NCBI GenBank assembly: GCA_030705745.1 | Contig: JAUZPT010000021.1 | Location: 1-17,325, forward strand | From: Bacillota bacterium | GTDB taxonomy: Bacteria; Bacillota; Bacilli; Bacillales; Cytobacillaceae | Reading direction: 5' to 3' | DNA: 17,325 nucleotides | Shown here: positions 27 through 11,086 of the stretch, in pieces | How positions within the stretch are numbered: the first letter of the stretch is position 1 | How the letters are laid out: every line of letters starts with the position of its first letter | Notes under the pieces: generated by a model | Seen by the model: only the letters and a program-made list of their open reading frames with translations | What the model was told of the DNA's origin: nothing | Databases searched by the model: none | Position numbers and translations under genes: made by a program

Positions 27-66
27 AAATGAGGCTGGCTCTATATGAGTCAGCCTCATTTTTTCA
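27..66. terminator. Bidirectional Rho-independent terminator
   Basis: AATGAGGCTG at about 29-38 pairs with CAGCCTCATT at 51-60, extended by flanking A/T pairs, and T-rich sequence follows on both strands. It sits directly after the stop codon of the leftward 491-residue gene and ends that operon. Its symmetry would also stop a rightward transcript entering from the left. Confidence 0.85.
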
Positions 67-1539
67 TTTGTTTTCTGACTGTGGTTTGTAGATGATTGTT
101 CCGTCTTTTTCCTTCGTAATTTTTTCGCGCATCATGCTCAATTCCTGCAACGGATCCACCACTGTGTCTTGACCGAATAAATCGAAGAGACCAAGTAATT
201 CCTGCCACCCATCCTGCCATTTTTTTATATTATCCATCATGGATGCATCATTTTTGCACAGCTCAGTTATTGGGATTTTGTTCTTCGATGCTTCATCGAT
301 TAATTTCAGTGCGAGTTCTTTTGTAATCGTTCCATTTGCATCCTTTAATTGATTGCAAGGGGATACCTCTCCCTTAGCCGATGAAGAATTCGGTCCTGAA
401 TCCCTGCTGCCCGTTGTTGAAATTACCTGGCCAAGTACCGGTTTATGAGGGGCTTGCGTCTTCATTATCACATGTTTAAGCGTTCCCGTAACCGGTTTCT
501 GAACTGAATTTAGAGAAAGCTTCCCTTTATCAAGGGTTTTAACAACAGGATCGGCCAGCTTTTTTGTTTCACCTACTGCCCTTTGTAACGGCTTTCGAAG
601 TGCTCCTGAATGTTCCTGAAGTGCTCCAGCAGCTTCACCTACTGTTTTTTGCAAAGGACCAAATAATCTGCCTACACCTTTTTGCAGCGTGTCGGTTAGC
701 CCGCCAACTGTCTTTTGCAGTGGATCGGTTAATCCACCCACTGTCTTTTGCAGCGGAGCAGTTAATCCATCTACTGCATGTTGCAATGAATCGCTTAAAC
801 CGTTAAGTGGCTTAGTGGCCAATCCTGCAAGAGTGGGGTCAACAGGTTTCAGAAGACCATCCTCTTGTTTAAGCTGGCCCATGCCGCCAATCGAGCCGAG
901 GTTTCCATTATCCATTTTATTATCGCCACACATCAATGGCAGATGTCCGCTAGTAATTTTTCCAATTTCGCTATCCAACTCATTAACAGGAAGAGTTGCT
1001 AAATCCTGGAGCATTTTTATTTCGTTTGGTTTTTCAGGACCAGCGTTCCCGGTAATCGTTTTCAACGTTAATTGATTAATATTGCTGTCTTCTGCATTCA
1101 TATAGTGAGCCACCATGACGACATTTTCCAATCCTGCCTCAGGAATGGGCGTTAATGCTTGAAGGCAAGCCCCTTTGAAAGTAATCGCCGAAGCATCCAC
1201 AGTCATTCCGTTCATCGTCACCGGGCCATCTGCCTTTAGCGTTACACTTATGATGCCTTGGGGGGTTTGAAGCTCTTTTGTTAACTTCATTCCATAGATT
1301 GTTGCAGATGCATAATGAAAACGCAGCATAGGCTTACTAGTGTTGGAAGCGGTTTCTTGATTGACGATAGTCGCTACCATTCCTGAACCGATAACCCTGT
1401 CAGCCTGGATGATAAATCCATCCAAACTGGTATCCGCTGTCTGTGCTGATGCATTTTGAGAAAATAAAGAAGTCAGAAGCATTAAGTGGAGACATAGGCT
1501 TATCAAAAGAATTCTTTTATTTATGTTTTTCCTCCTCAT
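64..1539 (-). CDS. Secreted protein: DUF6230-like domain plus 11-residue repeats
   Basis: This is a 491-residue protein of unknown function. Residues 1-32 form a Sec signal peptide ending near ASAQ. Residues 40-160 (starting GFIIQADRVIGSG) resemble the DUF6230-like protein two genes upstream: F-x2-Q-x-D opening, G-x-G turn, an 'IYG-x-KL' strand, a 'V-x-LKADGPV' strand, a 'DAS-x-I' segment and a closing N-Q-L-x-L strand. Residues 247-323 are seven 11-residue repeats of the form GLTDPLQKTVG. Residues 390-470 form a separate charged segment with ITKELALKLIDEASKNK and a W-x3-W motif. Cysteines at 125, 204, 395 and 428 could form two disulfides. The start has AAAGGAG ten bases upstream overlapping the previous stop (TAAAGGAG), so translation is probably coupled. 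The AGGAGG in codons 2-3 has no usual start codon after it. It is the last gene of the trio. The gene being real is nearly certain; the function is unknown. Confidence 0.85.
   Translation of the reverse strand: MRRKNINKRILLISLCLHLMLLTSLFSQNASAQTADTSLDGFIIQADRVIGSGMVATIVNQETASNTSKPMLRFHYASATIYGMKLTKELQTPQGIISVTLKADGPVTMNGMTVDASAITFKGACLQALTPIPEAGLENVVMVAHYMNAEDSNINQLTLKTITGNAGPEKPNEIKMLQDLATLPVNELDSEIGKITSGHLPLMCGDNKMDNGNLGSIGGMGQLKQEDGLLKPVDPTLAGLATKPLNGLSDSLQHAVDGLTAPLQKTVGGLTDPLQKTVGGLTDTLQKGVGRLFGPLQKTVGEAAGALQEHSGALRKPLQRAVGETKKLADPVVKTLDKGKLSLNSVQKPVTGTLKHVIMKTQAPHKPVLGQVISTTGSRDSGPNSSSAKGEVSPCNQLKDANGTITKELALKLIDEASKNKIPITELCKNDASMMDNIKKWQDGWQELLGLFDLFGQDTVVDPLQELSMMREKITKEKDGTIIYKPQSENK
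571..801 (-). repeat. Seven in-frame 33-bp tandem repeats
   Basis: Seven consecutive 33-bp units encode residues 247-323 of the secreted protein. The consensus is G-L-T-x-P-L-Q-K-T-V-G; the central units are closest to each other and the outer ones (EAAGALQEHSG, ALRKPLQRAVG) have drifted. A degenerate eighth unit may follow at residues 324-334. The period of 11 with L, L and V at fixed positions suggests an amphipathic helical (possibly coiled or lipid-facing) rod or spacer. Confidence 0.85.
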
Positions 1540-1554
1540 ATTTCTCTAACTCCT

Positions 1555-1944
1555 TTACCCTGTTTGGACTGTTGTTTCTGAAAACTCAGCTGCCACCTTT
1601 TCCTTTTTATTTATTGGAGCCATCCGCCAAGCAATTAAAAGGGAACCACCGATAATGCCCAAAATTGTTCCAATGAGAAATCCCCCTAGCGCCCCAATAA
1701 CAGACAATATTGAAAGAAAAATAGTGAAAACACCCAACAGTTTCGAAGAATTCGGAAAAAATAGAGCCAGTATCCCAATCAAGGTGATTAGTCCACCAAA
1801 CAATAAACCGATGACTGCTAAAGATCCTGGAAGAAATGCGCTTAAAAATAGATTCATTGGAATCCATAAGATTAGAAGGCCGCTTAGAATTGTAACGATA
1901 GATCCCCAGAATGGCCTCCGCTTTCTCCACTTTTGTTTTTCCAT
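1555..1944 (-). CDS. DUF6114-like small membrane protein
   Basis: This 129-residue protein has about four hydrophobic segments after a basic N-terminus. It carries the pattern I associate with DUF6114 proteins of Actinobacteria: RPFW near residues 10-13, 'SGLLILWIP', a G-rich 'GLLFGGLITLIGILALFFP' stretch and the closing 'GGFLIGTILGIIGGSLLIAW'. In Actinobacteria such genes usually sit beside a DUF6230 gene, as here. The start has GGAGG seven bases upstream; the stop overlaps the ribosome binding site of the next gene, and the gap to the preceding gene is only 20 bases, so it is operonic. It may be the membrane partner of the two exported DUF6230-type domains; that role is inference. The family call is from memory of the motif pattern, not a search. 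Confidence 0.8.
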   Translation of the reverse strand: MEKQKWRKRRPFWGSIVTILSGLLILWIPMNLFLSAFLPGSLAVIGLLFGGLITLIGILALFFPNSSKLLGVFTIFLSILSVIGALGGFLIGTILGIIGGSLLIAWRMAPINKKEKVAAEFSETTVQTG

Positions 1945-1964
1945 TGATTTTCCTCCCTACTTTC

Positions 1965-2537
1965 CTACTTTTTGATTTTTTCCACTGTCAATCTCATTCC
2001 GCTCATATTAATCGTTTTCTGAAATAAATAGTGTGTCTTCAGCTTTGCGTTCTCTAAAACAATCGATGAGGAGGTTTGCTGAAACTGTTTTGTCCAATCA
2101 TCACTTTTCTTTTCTTGAAGCGTCAGGTTTTGGAATTTCGCATTGGCTTCAATAAGTCCTGCATCCTGTTGAAGGCCGGTAATTTGAACAGGCTTGGAAG
2201 CAACGATCTTTACTCTGATCCAATCAGAACCTACTTTAAAATCCTTGTATAATTGCAAATGGTCGATCGTTAAATTTTCAATCAAGTTAGTTCCTTCAGG
2301 TACAGAAGATTCGCTGCTCGTTTCACCCATTTTCGGATAAAATGTATATCCGGTTCCCTCCAGCTTGTCAAATTGAACGTAAAAATCACCTACACCAGCA
2401 AGCGGCACCGCATATGCCACTCCAGACAACCCGAATGTAACAAGTAACAGCCCAAGCAATAAAACCCCACTAGCCATCGAAGTCCAGAAAACCTTTTTAT
2501 TCGTTGATCCTTCTACTAGCTGAACAGCTGATTCCAT
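1965..2537 (-). CDS. DUF6230-like exported/anchored protein
   Basis: This 190-residue protein is the first gene of the operon. I chose the ATG at 2537 (MESAVQL) because AAGGAGG lies six bases before it; an upstream ATG twelve codons earlier has no such site. Residues about 17-43 form one hydrophobic segment ending SGVAYAV, either a signal peptide or an N-terminal anchor. The rest looks beta-rich: F-x-VQFDKLEGTGY, then 'LTIDHLQLYK', 'VKIVASKPVQITGLQQDA', 'AKFQNLTL' and the closing 'MSGMRLTVEK'. This layout, including the short MES start, matches actinobacterial DUF6230 proteins, some labelled 'cholesterol esterase' in databases; no catalytic motif is visible, so I do not adopt that name. It resembles the N-terminal domain of the 491-residue protein of the same operon. 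Confidence 0.8.
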   Translation of the reverse strand: MESAVQLVEGSTNKKVFWTSMASGVLLLGLLLVTFGLSGVAYAVPLAGVGDFYVQFDKLEGTGYTFYPKMGETSSESSVPEGTNLIENLTIDHLQLYKDFKVGSDWIRVKIVASKPVQITGLQQDAGLIEANAKFQNLTLQEKKSDDWTKQFQQTSSSIVLENAKLKTHYLFQKTINMSGMRLTVEKIKK

Positions 2538-2573: not shown

Positions 2574-2616
2574 TAATTAAATTTACCTTACCCAAGTTTT
2601 CAACAAACTAACACTA

Positions 2617-2656
2617 CAAAAAAAATAAAAACCTATCCAAAATACAGATAGGTTTT
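2617..2656 (-). terminator. queF terminator
   Basis: On the minus strand AAAACCTATC (2656-2647) pairs with GATAGGTTTT (2637-2628), followed by a long T-rich tract to about 2617. It lies ten bases after the queF stop codon and insulates the DUF6230 operon downstream. Confidence 0.9.
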
Positions 2657-2666
2657 CGTAATAAAC

Positions 2667-3164
2667 TTAACGATTATCAATTTTTTCCGGATACAAATCA
2701 TGATTCATCAAACGGTACTCAGCCATTTGCTCATATTTCGTTCCTGGTTTTCCGTAGTTTGTATATGGGTCGATGGAAATTCCGCCTCTAGGTGTGAACT
2801 TGCCCCAAACCTCGATGTAGCGCGGATTCATGAGTTTGATTAAATCATTCATGATGATGTTCATGCAGTCTTCGTGGAAATCGCCATGGTTGCGGAAGCT
2901 GAACAAATACAGTTTTAGTGATTTGCTTTCAACCATCTTTTCATCAGGAATATAGCTGATATAAATAGTCGCGAAGTCCGGTTGGCCTGTTTTCGGGCAT
3001 AGGCTTGTAAACTCCGGGAAATTCATTTTTACAAAATAATCACGGCCAGCATGTTTATTATCAAAAGCCTCGAGCACGTCTGGTGTATAGTCAAATAAAT
3101 ATTTTGTACCTTGATTGCCGAGGAGCGTTACTCCATTCAATTCTTCATCTGTTCTACCTGCCAT
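2667..3164 (-). CDS. queF: NADPH-dependent preQ0 reductase QueF
   Basis: QueF reduces 7-cyano-7-deazaguanine (preQ0) to preQ1 with two NADPH, the last free-base step of queuosine tRNA modification, in the cytosol. The 165-residue length matches the short, unimodular QueF of Bacillus subtilis. The thioimide-forming cysteine is in [13 protein letters not shown] (Cys56), with the acid Asp63 seven residues later, the same spacing as Cys55/Asp62 in B. subtilis. The [11 protein letters not shown] stretch and the [12 protein letters not shown] segment are also family features. AAGGAGG lies nine bases before the ATG. It stands alone, not with queCDE, and its leader carries a preQ1 riboswitch and terminator, so end-product repression by attenuation is expected. 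Confidence 0.97.
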
Positions 3165-6598: not shown

Positions 6599-7231
6599 TT
6601 ATTCGACAAGTGAATGCTTAAATGCGTAAATGACCGCCTGAGTACGGTCCTGAACCTGAAGTTTGCTTAAGATGTTACTGACGTGCGTTTTGACTGTTTT
6701 CAAGGCAATGAACAATTCATCCGCGATTTCCTGGTTCGCTTTCCCTTCCGCCATAAGCAGAAGAATTTCCAGTTCGCGAGCAGTCAGTTCCTCATGGAGA
6801 AGGTGCTGATTTTTTTGGCGCATTTTCACCATCATCTTCCCTGTTACCTCAGGCTCTAGTACAGATTGTCCATTGAAAGTAGCACGAACAGCATTCGCAA
6901 TTTCACCCGCTTTTGATGTTTTCAGCATATAGCTTGTTGCACCTGCTTCAAGGGCTGGATAAACTTTTTCATCATCCAAAAAGCTCGTGACAATGATTAC
7001 TTTGGCTTCAGGCCACTGTTCAATGATTTTTCTTGTCGCTTCAATACCATCCATTTCTTTCATGACTAAATCCATCAATATTATATCCGGGCGAAGCTTG
7101 AGGGCAAGTTCAACACCCATTTGCCCATTATCTGCTTCACCGACAACCTCAATATCCGGCTGTGCCGCTAAATAGGCGGAAACGCCGATTCTTACCATTT
7201 CATGATCATCCACGAATACGACTCTAATCAT
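6599..7231 (-). CDS. liaR: Response regulator LiaR (NarL/LuxR family)
   Basis: This 210-residue regulator should receive phosphate from LiaS and activate the envelope-stress genes. The receiver domain (1-120) has the acidic pair DDH at 8-10, phospho-acceptor Asp54 in ILMDLVM, the Thr of 'IIVTSF' and the Lys of MLKTSKAG. A LuxR-type HTH fills about 147-205 ([15 protein letters not shown], '[23 protein letters not shown]'). The start at 7231 (MIRVVF) matches LiaR of B. subtilis and has GGGGA eight bases upstream. It overlaps the liaS stop by eight bases, so the two are translationally coupled. Confidence 0.95.
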
Positions 7232-8270
7232 TTTTATCGTCCCCATTTCCCATTGCCGGCACCTTCACCTCGAGGCGAGTTCCCTTATTTTTCACACTCA
7301 CAACCTTCAATGTTCCACCGACTTCAACTGCCCGTTCATGCATATTTTGCATTCCGTAAGAGCCAGCTTTTGCATCTTCCTCCTGAAAACCAATTCCATC
7401 ATCGACCACGCGCATAATAATTAGGTCTTCCCTTTTAATTAATAATACTTCCAAGCTGCTTGCCTTTGAATGCCTGAGAGTGTTCGAAACGGACTCTTGG
7501 AGAATTCGAAAAAGATGATCCTCCACCCCTTTATCAAGTGGAAACGGCTCAACCTTCCAATGAATATTCATCGTTACTTTTTGAGATAATTCTATTAAAA
7601 GTTCCTCAATTCCTTCTTGAAGCGTTTTACCCTTTAAAGCAACTGGACGTAGGTGAAGCAATAACGCGCGCATTTCAAGCTGTGATTGATGAATCATTTC
7701 TTCTACCATTTTCAGCTGTTTTGTTTCCCTATTATTGGAAGGCTCTTTTGTTTCGTTAATGGCTGACATCATCATCGAAGCAGCAAATAACTGCTGACTG
7801 ACTGAATCATGCAGCTCCCTTGCCAGTCGATTTCGCTCCTGCGAAATAATTTCCTGTATCCGGCCTTCTACATCTTCAACCTTTTCAGTCGCGAGACGCT
7901 GTGACAGCATGACCTGTTCGGTCATTTGCTTGCCAATCCTTTCGATTCGGTCGATAATAAAATGCATTTCTGTATTGCTTGCTCCATCTTTCCGATCAAA
8001 AATTCTGCCTTCCTCAAGTTGAGAAAGTGATTGATCCACGAAATGAAGCTGATTTTTCCAGTAAACTCCTGAAATCATTCCAAATAGAATTCCTATTCCT
8101 ACACTGCATATCGGAATAAAGAGTACAAAAGGAATGTTCATAAAACGATGATCCAGAAGTTCAGTCCAATGATTGAATGGAAATATCCATAAGTAGGCGA
8201 AGGAAAAGAAAATGGCGAGCATAAAAGAAAAACCTGATGCCCATACAATTTGGCGCTGGACCGAGCTCAT
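7224..8270 (-). CDS. liaS: Sensor histidine kinase LiaS
   Basis: This 348-residue HPK7-type kinase has two TM segments (about 13-31 and 46-70) with only a short extracytoplasmic loop, typical of intramembrane-sensing kinases responding to cell-wall antibiotics. A HAMP-like and coiled linker follows (72-140), then the HisKA_3 domain with phospho-acceptor His154 in [16 protein letters not shown]. The HATPase region holds '[19 protein letters not shown]', VVDDGIGF and a G-box [11 protein letters not shown]. The ATG overlaps the liaF stop as ATGA. LiaF normally keeps this kinase inactive until stress. Confidence 0.95.
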
Positions 8271-9004
8271 ATGCGTACCACCTCTAAATTCCCAACAATC
8301 AGTGATGTAAATATTTTAATTTTTTGCCCTGACTGCTCATAATTCGGTGTTTGCAAATGATAGACCTGATTAAAGAGTTTGGTTTCCTGCAATCCAAAAA
8401 TCGAGGTAGACCCCGCCATTACCGAATGATGAAGGCTGACTTCAACATCATATGGAACAAGGATCCGGACATTTCCGATAAAATTGCGGACAAATACAAT
8501 TGTTTCTCCTTTTGGCAAAAATGTATTGCTGAAGTCTATGATTGTATCTCCTACGCCGGCCTGAATATTAATATCGTTCCATTCATACGCATGGCTAGGT
8601 GTCTTTTGTTGACCAACAAGAATATTTTCGAGTAAAGGCTTTGTTCTAATTATCGTTTCTGCTTGATTAACCGATTCCTTCTGGTTAATCAATGGTGTAA
8701 TCTTCTTTGGGGTCCGCTTTGATTGGGAAAACTGAACAATAAAATGGATCAGAATTGCTACCAGTAAAAATTTAAACGTCATCATTGTAAAAATGCTCGT
8801 ACACGTAAAAATAATTCCGCCCCAAAACAAAATTTTACCCTTTTTTTTCGCCATTCTTTTACGGCCAAGATAAATCATCATCGCTGAAATAAACAGGGAA
8901 AAAATAAGTCCGCTGTTAAAAAAAGCAATCTCCATTAATAGGACAAAGATTCCGATGATCACAATCCAGCTCGGATAATCCTTTTTCAAGCTTTTCAGCA
9001 TCAC
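8267..9004 (-). CDS. liaF: LiaF, membrane inhibitor of the LiaRS system
   Basis: This 245-residue protein has three or four hydrophobic segments in residues 10-95 and a soluble C-terminal beta-rich domain (about 125-245) of the LiaF/DUF2154 'cell wall-active antibiotics response' type, with 'IQAGVGDTIIDFSNTFLPKG', FVRNFIGNVRILVPYDVEV and a closing [10 protein letters not shown]. LiaF represses LiaS in unstressed cells. The first codons are GTG-ATG; a GAAGGGA site lies seven bases before GTG and ten before ATG (9001), so either may be used. The gene overlaps liaS. B. subtilis has liaG before liaF; none is present here. Confidence 0.92.
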   Translation of the reverse strand: MMLKSLKKDYPSWIVIIGIFVLLMEIAFFNSGLIFSLFISAMMIYLGRKRMAKKKGKILFWGGIIFTCTSIFTMMTFKFLLVAILIHFIVQFSQSKRTPKKITPLINQKESVNQAETIIRTKPLLENILVGQQKTPSHAYEWNDINIQAGVGDTIIDFSNTFLPKGETIVFVRNFIGNVRILVPYDVEVSLHHSVMAGSTSIFGLQETKLFNQVYHLQTPNYEQSGQKIKIFTSLIVGNLEVVRI

Positions 9005-9042
9005 TTACGCTTCCCTTCTAATAAATAGTTCATTTATAACCC

Positions 9043-9068
9043 AAAAGGCGCAGAAATCTACGCCTTTT
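9043..9068. terminator. Hairpin between liaH and liaF
   Basis: AAAAGGCG (9043-9050) and CGCCTTTT (9061-9068) form an 8-bp stem with a ten-base loop, after the liaH stop and before liaF. The T-tract is short (TTTT) on either strand, so termination is probably partial. This would give more effector than regulator transcript, as described for the liaIH/liaGFSR junction in B. subtilis. Confidence 0.6.
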
Positions 9069-9086
9069 TAGAATACCATGTTTTGT

Positions 9087-9734
9087 TTATAAAATGGACT
9101 TGCTTTCTTCACTTTTCAATCCTTTTTCCAATTCGGCGATTCGCGCATCAATGGTATGGCGGAAGTAGGAGCTGTTCACCTGCTGCTCCAGGCGGTCAAG
9201 ATAGTTTTCGATTTTCTCAAAGCGTGAAAAATTGCTGTCCGAAAAGCTATTGAACTCCAGCACCTTATTGATACGATTATGGGCACGTGTCACATTTTCA
9301 CGTCCCATTAGTTCCAAACGACGGATATTCATATCCTTCAGTTTATGCTTCATCTCTTCATATTTTTTTTCTAAAACACTCAATTGTTCAATGGCAGTAT
9401 TCATAGCTGTCTGCAAATGCTGTGCACGGTCTGCATATTGCGTATGTTCCTGTGCGGCAAAATCAGCAAGATTTGCTTCCCCTGCTTGAGAGGCTATTTC
9501 GGCCTGGCGTTTTCTTTTCTCTGCAAGTTCAATGGATTGTTGATATTCACGCGTGAACTCTTCAATTAATGCATGCTGGCGCTCAACCAGTTTCCTTACC
9601 TTTTCTGCTTCCTTCTCTGACTGAAGAAGATAATGATTAAGCATTGAAATCGGATTTTCCTTTTCCTTTTGATCGAGCACTTCATGTAAATCAGCATAAA
9701 CCACATTTTTTAATTTTGTTAATAAGTTTGTCAT
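9087..9734 (-). CDS. liaH: PspA/IM30 family protein, LiaH-like
   Basis: This 215-residue protein is almost wholly alpha-helical and coiled-coil, as in PspA/IM30/Vipp1/LiaH. It starts with a short amphipathic helix (MTNLLTKLKNVVYADLHEVL) that binds membranes; the ENPISMLNHYLLQSEKEAEK segment is the family hallmark after the first turn. Long heptad-rich helices (about 30-150) and a C-terminal helix ('IDARIAELEKGLKSEE') follow. Such proteins form large rings or scaffolds that stabilise damaged membrane. GGGAG lies eight bases before the ATG. Its place ahead of liaFSR supports the LiaH role; a housekeeping PspA paralogue remains possible. Confidence 0.92.
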   Translation of the reverse strand: MTNLLTKLKNVVYADLHEVLDQKEKENPISMLNHYLLQSEKEAEKVRKLVERQHALIEEFTREYQQSIELAEKRKRQAEIASQAGEANLADFAAQEHTQYADRAQHLQTAMNTAIEQLSVLEKKYEEMKHKLKDMNIRRLELMGRENVTRAHNRINKVLEFNSFSDSNFSRFEKIENYLDRLEQQVNSSYFRHTIDARIAELEKGLKSEESKSIL

Positions 9735-10276: not shown

Positions 10277-10891
10277 TTATTTGGAGATAAACATTTGGCA
10301 CCAATAGTATCTTTGCGAGCCACCTTTTGAAAATCCCACGCCGATTCTCGTAAAACTCCTGCTTAAAATATTTGCCCTATGTCCTGGGCTGTTCATCCAA
10401 GCTGTCACAACCTCTTGTGGGGTCAACTGCCCTGCAGCAATATTTTCACCATCAGAGTGATAAGAAATACCAAAATTTTTCATCATTGTGAATGGATCGC
10501 CGTAGGTTGGGCTGGTATGAGAGAAGTAGTTTTTATCTCTCATATCGTTTGCCTTATAGCGAGCAACGCGGGATAATTCCCAATCCGCAGTCAGTGGGGG
10601 GAGACTGTTTTTCGCTCGCTCCTGATTGGTCAATTGGATGACCTGTTGTTCAATGCTCTTAGTGGCATTAAAATTAGGGATATTAACCTTTTCACCTGGA
10701 TAAATCAAATTAGGGTTTTTAAATTGCGGGTTAGCAGCAATGATTTCTGAAATGCCTACTTGATACCTGACAGCGATTTTCCAAAGCGAGTCACCTGGCT
10801 GTACCGTATACACTGTCTGCGCAAAAGAGACCGCCGGCATACAAAATAGGGAAAGCAAAAACATGAAACAGATCAAGTACGATTTTTTCAT
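10277..10891 (-). CDS. Secreted LysM + CAP (SCP) domain protein
   Basis: This 204-residue exported protein has a signal peptide at 1-24 (cleavage near SFAQ), a LysM peptidoglycan-binding module at about 26-70 (YTVQPGDSLWKIAVRYQV, 'NPNLIYPGEKVNIP'), and a CAP domain at about 85-203. CAP hallmarks are 'LTNQERAKNSLPPL', 'ARYKANDMRDKNYFSHTSP', 'GENIAAGQ' and 'WMNSPGHRANILS'. This resembles the YkwD/SafA-type proteins of Bacillus, seen in spore coat or cell wall; bacterial CAP proteins have no agreed enzymatic activity. I chose the ATG at 10891 because a GGAGGAG site precedes it and it begins the signal peptide; eight extra codons are open upstream. A weak TTGTTT/TATATG pair, 16 bases apart, precedes it. 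Confidence 0.93.
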   Translation of the reverse strand: MKKSYLICFMFLLSLFCMPAVSFAQTVYTVQPGDSLWKIAVRYQVGISEIIAANPQFKNPNLIYPGEKVNIPNFNATKSIEQQVIQLTNQERAKNSLPPLTADWELSRVARYKANDMRDKNYFSHTSPTYGDPFTMMKNFGISYHSDGENIAAGQLTPQEVVTAWMNSPGHRANILSRSFTRIGVGFSKGGSQRYYWCQMFISK

Positions 10892-11086
10892 CACTTCACT
10901 TCTCCTCCTTCGCATATAGCATTTTGTATAAAGGAAACAAATATACCCAAATGACCGTTATTTTCAATGAAAAATGTTGAATATCCGAAAAAGCAGATTA
11001 CATTATGTGCCTTTGTGGAAACAGGTAAGAAGAATATTTTTTATTGCGGTGCTGAAACTAAAAAGGTGAGTTTGGAGGAAAAGGAA

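Follow-up and report, generated by a model that had tools for sequence, protein, structure and literature searches.

The three-gene operon at positions 64-2537 of a 17,325-nucleotide stretch of DNA from a Bacillota bacterium of the family Cytobacillaceae (contig JAUZPT010000021.1; the whole stretch is hereafter 'the window') is, on balance, probably a conserved envelope module that handles long-chain hydrophobic molecules, likeliest n-alkanes, outside and at the cytoplasmic membrane, and that feeds intracellular oxidation. The evidence for this reading includes membership of the first gene in the family of the alkane-inducible proteins P16 and P21, conservation of the three genes as a trio, and linkage of the trio, in some relatives, to gene clusters that contain an R2-like ligand-binding oxidase (R2lox).

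The operon comprises three leftward genes on the minus strand: gene 1 (positions 1965-2537, ATG start, 190 residues), gene 2 (1555-1944, 129 residues), and gene 3 (64-1539, 491 residues). Coordinates re-derived from the open reading frames reproduce exactly the intergenic gaps given in the original prediction, 20 bases between genes 1 and 2 and 15 bases between genes 2 and 3. Hidden-Markov-model searches against Pfam uphold its family assignments: gene 1 scores 38.5 bits against DUF6230 (PF19741; gathering score, 27.5 bits), and gene 2 scores 101 bits (E 7.3e-29) against DUF6114 (PF19609; gathering score, 27.9 bits). The gene 1 product has a signal segment followed by a beta-domain, and the gene 2 product has a basic N-terminus and four hydrophobic segments, in agreement with the four-transmembrane protein that had been proposed.

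The gene 3 product has a signal peptide, which is its only hydrophobic segment, a diverged DUF6230 domain at residues ~40-165, a repeat arm at residues ~245-335, and a C-terminal helical domain. Because gene 3 scores 18.3 bits against DUF6230, below the cut-off of 27.5 bits, and because its kinship is a distant one detected by profile comparison, we regard it, on sequence grounds, as the carrier of a DUF6230-like domain and not as a Pfam member. Profile-profile comparison of gene 1 with gene 3 gives a probability of 98.3 and E 2.2e-14, gene 1 as a single query retrieves the gene 3 homologues of two genomes of the same genus (E 5.6e-6 and 5.0e-4), and the AlphaFold models of the two proteins (predicted local distance difference test scores 83 and 74, for genes 1 and 3) have equal strand order. 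The results agree with the earlier proposals that genes 1 and 3 have a domain in common, that both have export signals, and that gene 3 is repeat-bearing: the arm (positions 535-807, minus strand, defined by lag-11 identity) contains 11-residue units such as GLTDPLQKTVG, and the periodicity observed at lag 11 was equalled in 0 of 2000 shuffles. Each of four cysteines is retained by 47 to 51 of the 54 gene 3 homologues aligned. The best repeat lag, determined in 90 homologues, is most often 14 (n = 30), 11 (n = 25), or 7 (n = 20); because the lags vary in this way, and because several units have two prolines, reading the arm as amphipathic helix is insecure. A Pfam apolipoprotein match of gene 3 (E 0.025) was not accepted as membership. 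In a tree of 86 DUF6230 domains, chosen by locus from 195 and read without support values, the gene 3 domains lie mostly on a separate branch, with those of loci L125 and L143 elsewhere.

According to excerpts of Kato et al., 2009 (PMC2676291), P16 and P21 are alkane-inducible membrane proteins of Geobacillus thermoleovorans B23, long-chain alkanes induce them at the protein and RNA levels to an extent that rises with chain length, and palmitic acid, triglycerides, and dicyclopropylketone give no induction. The N-terminal segment of both proteins was found removed, and the proteins were still in the insoluble fraction. The peptides of that study match DUF6230 genes: P21-14 and P21-20 at 16/16 and 19/19 residues in locus L146, and P16-N at 14 of 15 read residues in both L070 and L077. 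Peptide P16-N also matches gene 1 of the window at 11 of 15 read residues, at the AYA junction, where the mature P16 N-terminus, VPISGVGEF, aligns with AYA-VPLAGVGDF of gene 1. Gene 1 has both features by which the P16/P21 family is recognized here, homology and the same mature N-terminus, and in the tree mentioned above, again without support values, it lies closer to the P16-type genes of L070 and L077 than to the P21 gene of L146. We conclude that DUF6230 is, as judged from sequence, the P16/P21 family. The original prediction had called the function of the operon unknown, a statement now outdated, since DUF6230 proteins include the alkane-induced P16 and P21 (PMC2676291) and the P21 gene lies beside the gene for a reported alkane monooxygenase (PMC10867098, excerpts). 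It had also described the gene 1 product as possibly anchored. Because the mature P16 N-terminus matches the AYA-VPLAGVGDF site, the N-terminal segment of gene 1 is probably a cleaved signal peptide, with probable cleavage after residue 43, between AYA and VPLAGVGD, and with no anchoring by that segment. Because its best-studied part is induced by oil alkanes, the module probably aids uptake of long greasy molecules. The name 'cholesterol esterase', which N-terminal peptides of P16/P21 had suggested, was set aside; Kato et al. state, in the excerpted text, that whole-protein similarity is negligible (PMC2676291).

To survey the trio, named genomes were scanned with a DUF6114 alignment and the best 80 of 95 loci were taken, nearly all of them from Bacilli, with one from a metagenome-assembled genome of the Alicyclobacillaceae and one from a haloarchaeon (Halomarina). 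With the window included, a DUF6230 gene is present within 3 kb upstream of DUF6114 in 81/81 loci, as two frames in seven of them, and a DUF6230-like gene is present within 3 kb downstream in 74/81 loci. The expectation that the trio would be conserved together in related genomes is thereby borne out, alongside the significant Pfam matches of genes 1 and 2. The survey profiles were iterated from the window's own proteins and are biased toward finding the trio; the single-sequence matches of gene 1 and the profile comparison of gene 1 with gene 3 are independent of them. With gene 1 as single query against 41 genomes, one of them the window's own and the other 40 those of relatives, matches occur in 10 (the window's counted), and the module is accordingly patchy. 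Gene 3 was unseen near DUF6114 in seven loci, five from Geobacillus (one with a flank of just 1.5 kb), one from Caldibacillus, and that of Halomarina. A secreted protein of Halomarina rubra, downstream of DUF6230-DUF6114 (L088 7230-9131), has 11-residue-like repeats by eye (TTGTVGDVVDN type); it was rejected as gene 3, its domain kinship failing the profile, and is a counterpart by architecture only. As judged by its genes, the module is common to heat-loving bacteria and, in part, to salt-loving archaea. With Bacillota queries, no actinobacterial record appears among the best 80 loci or the named rows of the 120/239 listed proteins; PMC12835213 (excerpt) mentions a DUF6230 gene from Streptomyces. 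A plasmid collection yielded a single distant DUF6230 match (Natronococcus) and zero DUF6114 matches.

DUF6114 matches under the cut-off, including that of a Bacillus subtilis control, were left out of all counts, and weak matches on open reading frames of ~540 residues (L017, L019) were rejected as resembling, by eye, major facilitator superfamily transporters. Three genomes (G498, G526, and G550; L128-L133) have tandem arrays with up to six above-cut-off DUF6114 copies per genome, plus DUF6230 genes; one of the latter (L129 7776-9836) has, by eye, PKD-like repeats. Two records, with the titles Paenibacillus sp. BSR1-1 and Chryseobacterium sp. ISL-80 (L024, L037), hold Neobacillus/Mesobacillus-like loci, and their names are apparently wrong.

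In Geobacillus kaustophilus HTA426, the R2lox protein GK2771 (GkR2loxI), whose gene adjoins the P21 gene, was reported in 2024 to oxidize alkanes, and P21/P16 were called transporters by inference (PMC10867098, excerpts). The order in L146, with gene names assigned by eye except for R2lox and the DUF genes, is short-chain dehydrogenase/reductase, thiolase, AarF-type kinase, alcohol dehydrogenase-like and aldehyde dehydrogenase-like proteins, R2lox (E 2e-201 versus PDB 4hr0), P21, DUF6114, gene 3, and a regulator-like gene. The contiguous order in L145 is acyl-CoA dehydrogenase, enoyl-CoA hydratase, short-chain dehydrogenase/reductase, thiolase, R2lox (E 1e-129 versus 4hr0), AMP-binding acyl-CoA ligase, LuxR regulator, two DUF6230 genes, DUF6114, and gene 3. 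Similar clusters are apparently present in L143, with an aldehyde dehydrogenase, and in L144, and some halophilic loci have ligase, thiolase, and SCP2 genes near the module. A conserved protein of ~110-155 residues (FYRQSGGPGNP / FYDQSGGPNNP) is encoded beside the AarF-like kinase in L140, L141, L143, and L146; that of L143 has no Pfam match at 1e-3.

R2lox and DUF6114 also co-occur across genomes. Of 249 genomes sampled from the window's order, 31 have DUF6114 above the cut-off, 39 have R2lox (threshold E 1e-40), and 18 have both, that is, R2lox is present in 18/31 genomes with DUF6114 versus 21/218 others (Fisher p 3e-9). Counted by genus, R2lox is present in 11/18 with DUF6114 versus 8/88 without (p 5e-6). 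Urease, taken as control and counted in the 54 genomes with a match below 1e-40 (weaker matches were dropped), shows no association, with 8/31 versus 46/218 genomes (p 0.64). In 7 genomes, belonging to 5 genera, the distance between R2lox and DUF6114 is 2.8 to 9.9 kb. In a phylum sample of 398 genomes, 8 of which have DUF6114 over cut-off, DUF6114 is present in 5 of 6 R2lox genomes, four of the five being of one genus. In Halomarina's class (145 genomes), R2lox-like matches (E 1e-20), which may include other R2 proteins, are present in 13/13 genomes with DUF6114 versus 29/132 others (p 2e-8), and one genome of the class, G445, has a remoter R2lox-like protein (4hr0 group, ~1e-14) ~5 kb from DUF6114 (L135 2594-3646).

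Three genomes, all from one genus (L011-L013), have DUF6114 inside an open frame of 872-875 codons, and the product scanned against Pfam, that of L011, has DUF6114 (1.3e-22) followed by an AMP-binding acyl-CoA ligase domain (4.5e-108). Because the protein has a basic N-terminus and four helices, the DUF6114 C-terminus should be on the cytosolic side, which would suit a fused ligase. This expected orientation, and the tight linkage of the module to ligase, thiolase, and R2lox, favor inward flow over the alternative that the module confers tolerance, shielding the membrane against hydrophobic molecules such as alkanes or exporting them, and joins degradation genes as oil demands both. We regard that alternative as rather unlikely, although the same induction pattern would be expected of it, the module is retained in R2lox-free genomes, and Kato et al., in the excerpted text, leave uptake, tolerance, and degradation all open (PMC2676291). 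An AarF/ABC1-like frame lies, by eye, 5' of the long frame in L011.

That the module serves general envelope or lipid homeostasis, acting on membrane or wall lipids, with the alkane response as one use and with the window's copy as housekeeping only, is improbable. The spread of the module beyond R2lox genomes, the AarF/ABC1 kinase and SCP2 neighbors in some loci, and the loss of regulator and operator-like dyad in the window (see below) are in its favor, but a gene over cut-off in just 31 of the 249 genomes of the order does not look like one of housekeeping function, and neither fatty acid nor triglyceride gave induction (PMC2676291, excerpts).

Several points weigh against alkane handling by a three-part module. 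The co-occurrence p values given above are too small because of shared descent. Of the 31 genomes that have DUF6114 in the sample of the order, 13, including that of the window, have no R2lox at E 1e-40, and the haloarchaeal R2lox-like matches are 31-39% identical, with none within 10 kb of DUF6114 by listed coordinates. In the window's genome (an assembly 85.7% complete), a search for R2lox gave no match at E 1e-40, a Pfam scan of 18 open reading frames of the window gave no R2lox, and a search of the genome for LadA-type proteins (TIGR03860) gave none. Six bacterial DUF6114 loci (five Geobacillus, one Caldibacillus) have no gene 3 nearby, and the Halomarina candidate fails the profile. In the excerpts of Kato et al., disruption of the P16/P21 genes was unsuccessful, leaving no phenotype, and the P21 mRNA, at ~700 bases, is of single-gene size, which speaks against co-transcription in the P21 locus (PMC2676291). 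Structure comparison found no solved structure resembling the DUF6230 model or the gene 3 model, so that no lipid pocket is indicated by a known fold.

A divergent gene upstream of the module, belonging to one protein cluster, is present in 62/80 loci, at a median distance of 214 bases from gene 1 (61 loci). The cluster member scanned has GAF and LuxR-type (GerE) domains, and the regulator of L145 has GerE alone (E 1e-3, Pfam scan). A search that allowed up to one mismatch, between -400 and +30 relative to the first gene, detected the dyad CC[GT]ACA-NN-TGT[AC]GG at 41 sites in 39/80 loci versus 5 sites elsewhere in 950 kb; at the same stringency the dyad is missing in 41/80 loci. The dyad is a candidate site for the LuxR-type regulator. 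The window differs: its upstream region has no dyad, no regulator adjoins the operon, and a regulator search of its incomplete genome assembly gave matches of helix-turn-helix size only. In Neobacillus terrae, of the same genus, the regulator and then the dyad (one mismatch) lie between queF and gene 1; in the window, a proximal promoter region, still alignable to relatives, comes straight after the queF terminator. The simplest reading of the alignment is that the window lost ~1.7 kb by a clean deletion beside queF. Because regulator and dyad are lost, the window's operon may be constitutive or otherwise controlled.

The proximal promoter region (positions 2578-2616, minus strand; TAGTG.TAGTTT...GGGTAAGGTAAA) is shared with relatives of the same genus, with the distal part and dyad gone; a sigma-B-like promoter, weighed by eye, was unsupported. 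The original prediction had drawn attention to a palindrome before the operon. The inverted repeat does exist, as the A+T-rich TTGAATTTTT-N-AAAAATTCAA at positions 2553-2573, between promoter region and start codon, but it is absent upstream in the 13 relatives compared and was ruled out as operator for that reason; the conserved element is the dyad described above. Upstream, queF (2667-3164, minus strand; Pfam and alignment with relatives) is parted from the operon by its intrinsic terminator (2627-2657, minus strand), and a probable terminator hairpin, near-symmetrical and scored on the plus strand only, lies just 3' of the gene 3 stop codon (26-62). Because a terminator lies upstream and a hairpin downstream, the trio looks like one transcription unit.

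According to the hypothesis that the module handles alkanes, long-chain alkanes, as reported for P16 and P21 in Geobacillus, would induce the module, with the divergent LuxR-type protein acting on the dyad as the putative switch; the gene 1 beta-domain, once its signal segment is cut off, and gene 3 with its arm would hold or pass the molecule through the wall space; the four-helix DUF6114 protein would receive it in the membrane; and R2lox, with the activity reported by others, would oxidize it, followed, in an order suggested by the gene clusters, by alcohol and aldehyde dehydrogenases, ligase, and beta-oxidation enzymes. Association of the three products in one envelope complex, as first suggested, is plausible. 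In the window, since the neighboring regulator and dyad are lost and a search of the assembly (85.7% complete) gave no R2lox, the module may be rewired or used for another hydrophobic substrate. A more specific form of the hypothesis, which we put forward tentatively, is that the module is a dedicated long-chain alkane uptake machine of single-membrane cells, in bacteria and haloarchaea, in which a secreted beta-domain pair, one member with an extendable arm, delivers to a membrane protein of four helices, and this protein is coupled with an acyl-CoA ligase in the cytosol (fused in one genus), with R2lox as oxidizer and a GAF-LuxR protein as hydrocarbon switch.

A DUF6114-acyl-CoA ligase fusion fits poorly with a pure adhesin, and we accordingly give little weight to the alternative that DUF6230 proteins and the arm form a surface layer, coating the cell or binding to surfaces such as oil droplets, and that DUF6114 anchors them or assists their export. 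The variable length of the repeat arm would suit such a layer, as would the visibility of P16/P21 as bands on stained gels (PMC2676291, excerpts) and the locus of Lentibacillus salicampi (L053), where the genes ahead of the operon encode a sortase, a DUF6801/Ig-like LPXTG surface protein, and a GDSL lipase, and where one copy of DUF6230 has an LPDTA-like wall anchor at its end. Genes of these clusters recur in loci L061 and L071.

Elsewhere in the window, a leftward row of genes (6599-9734) resembles a cell-envelope stress cluster: it encodes a LiaR/LiaS-like two-component pair together with LiaF-like and PspA/IM30 proteins, and a gene for a secreted protein of LysM-CAP type (10277-10915) comes next.

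With alkane handling as the preferred reading, two Pfam families that had no known function acquire a role hypothesis that is concrete and testable, a third partner, a candidate regulator and candidate site, and a test case in Geobacillus. To our knowledge, how water-insoluble long-chain alkanes are delivered to oxidizing enzymes in cells without an outer membrane is not settled, and a search of open-licence PMC literature (titles and starts of abstracts) found no paper handling the three genes as one system.

The closest known counterparts are P16 and P21, with which gene 1 shares the DUF6230 family, the character of a small secreted beta protein, and, for P16, the mature N-terminal motif VP[IL]xGVGxF. 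In Geobacillus loci, P16-type and P21 genes are accompanied by DUF6114, and in L146, the locus of P21, gene 3 is present too. In contrast, the excerpts of Kato et al. describe single proteins, with no DUF6114, gene 3, regulator, or operator (PMC2676291), and the window's copy has no regulator, dyad, or nearby R2lox. The GkR2loxI alkane cluster is alike in that GK2770 is P21 (PMC10867098, excerpts) and in that the same kinds of enzyme lie beside the module in L143-L146. It differs in that the window has no such enzyme cluster. A third comparison is with FadL/FadD, which take up fatty acids by vectorial acylation: as the DUF6114-ligase fusion suggests for the module, an envelope carrier is there coupled to a cytosolic acyl-CoA ligase, whereas the hosts of the module are monoderm and the comparison is one of arrangement, with no known sequence or fold kinship to FadL.

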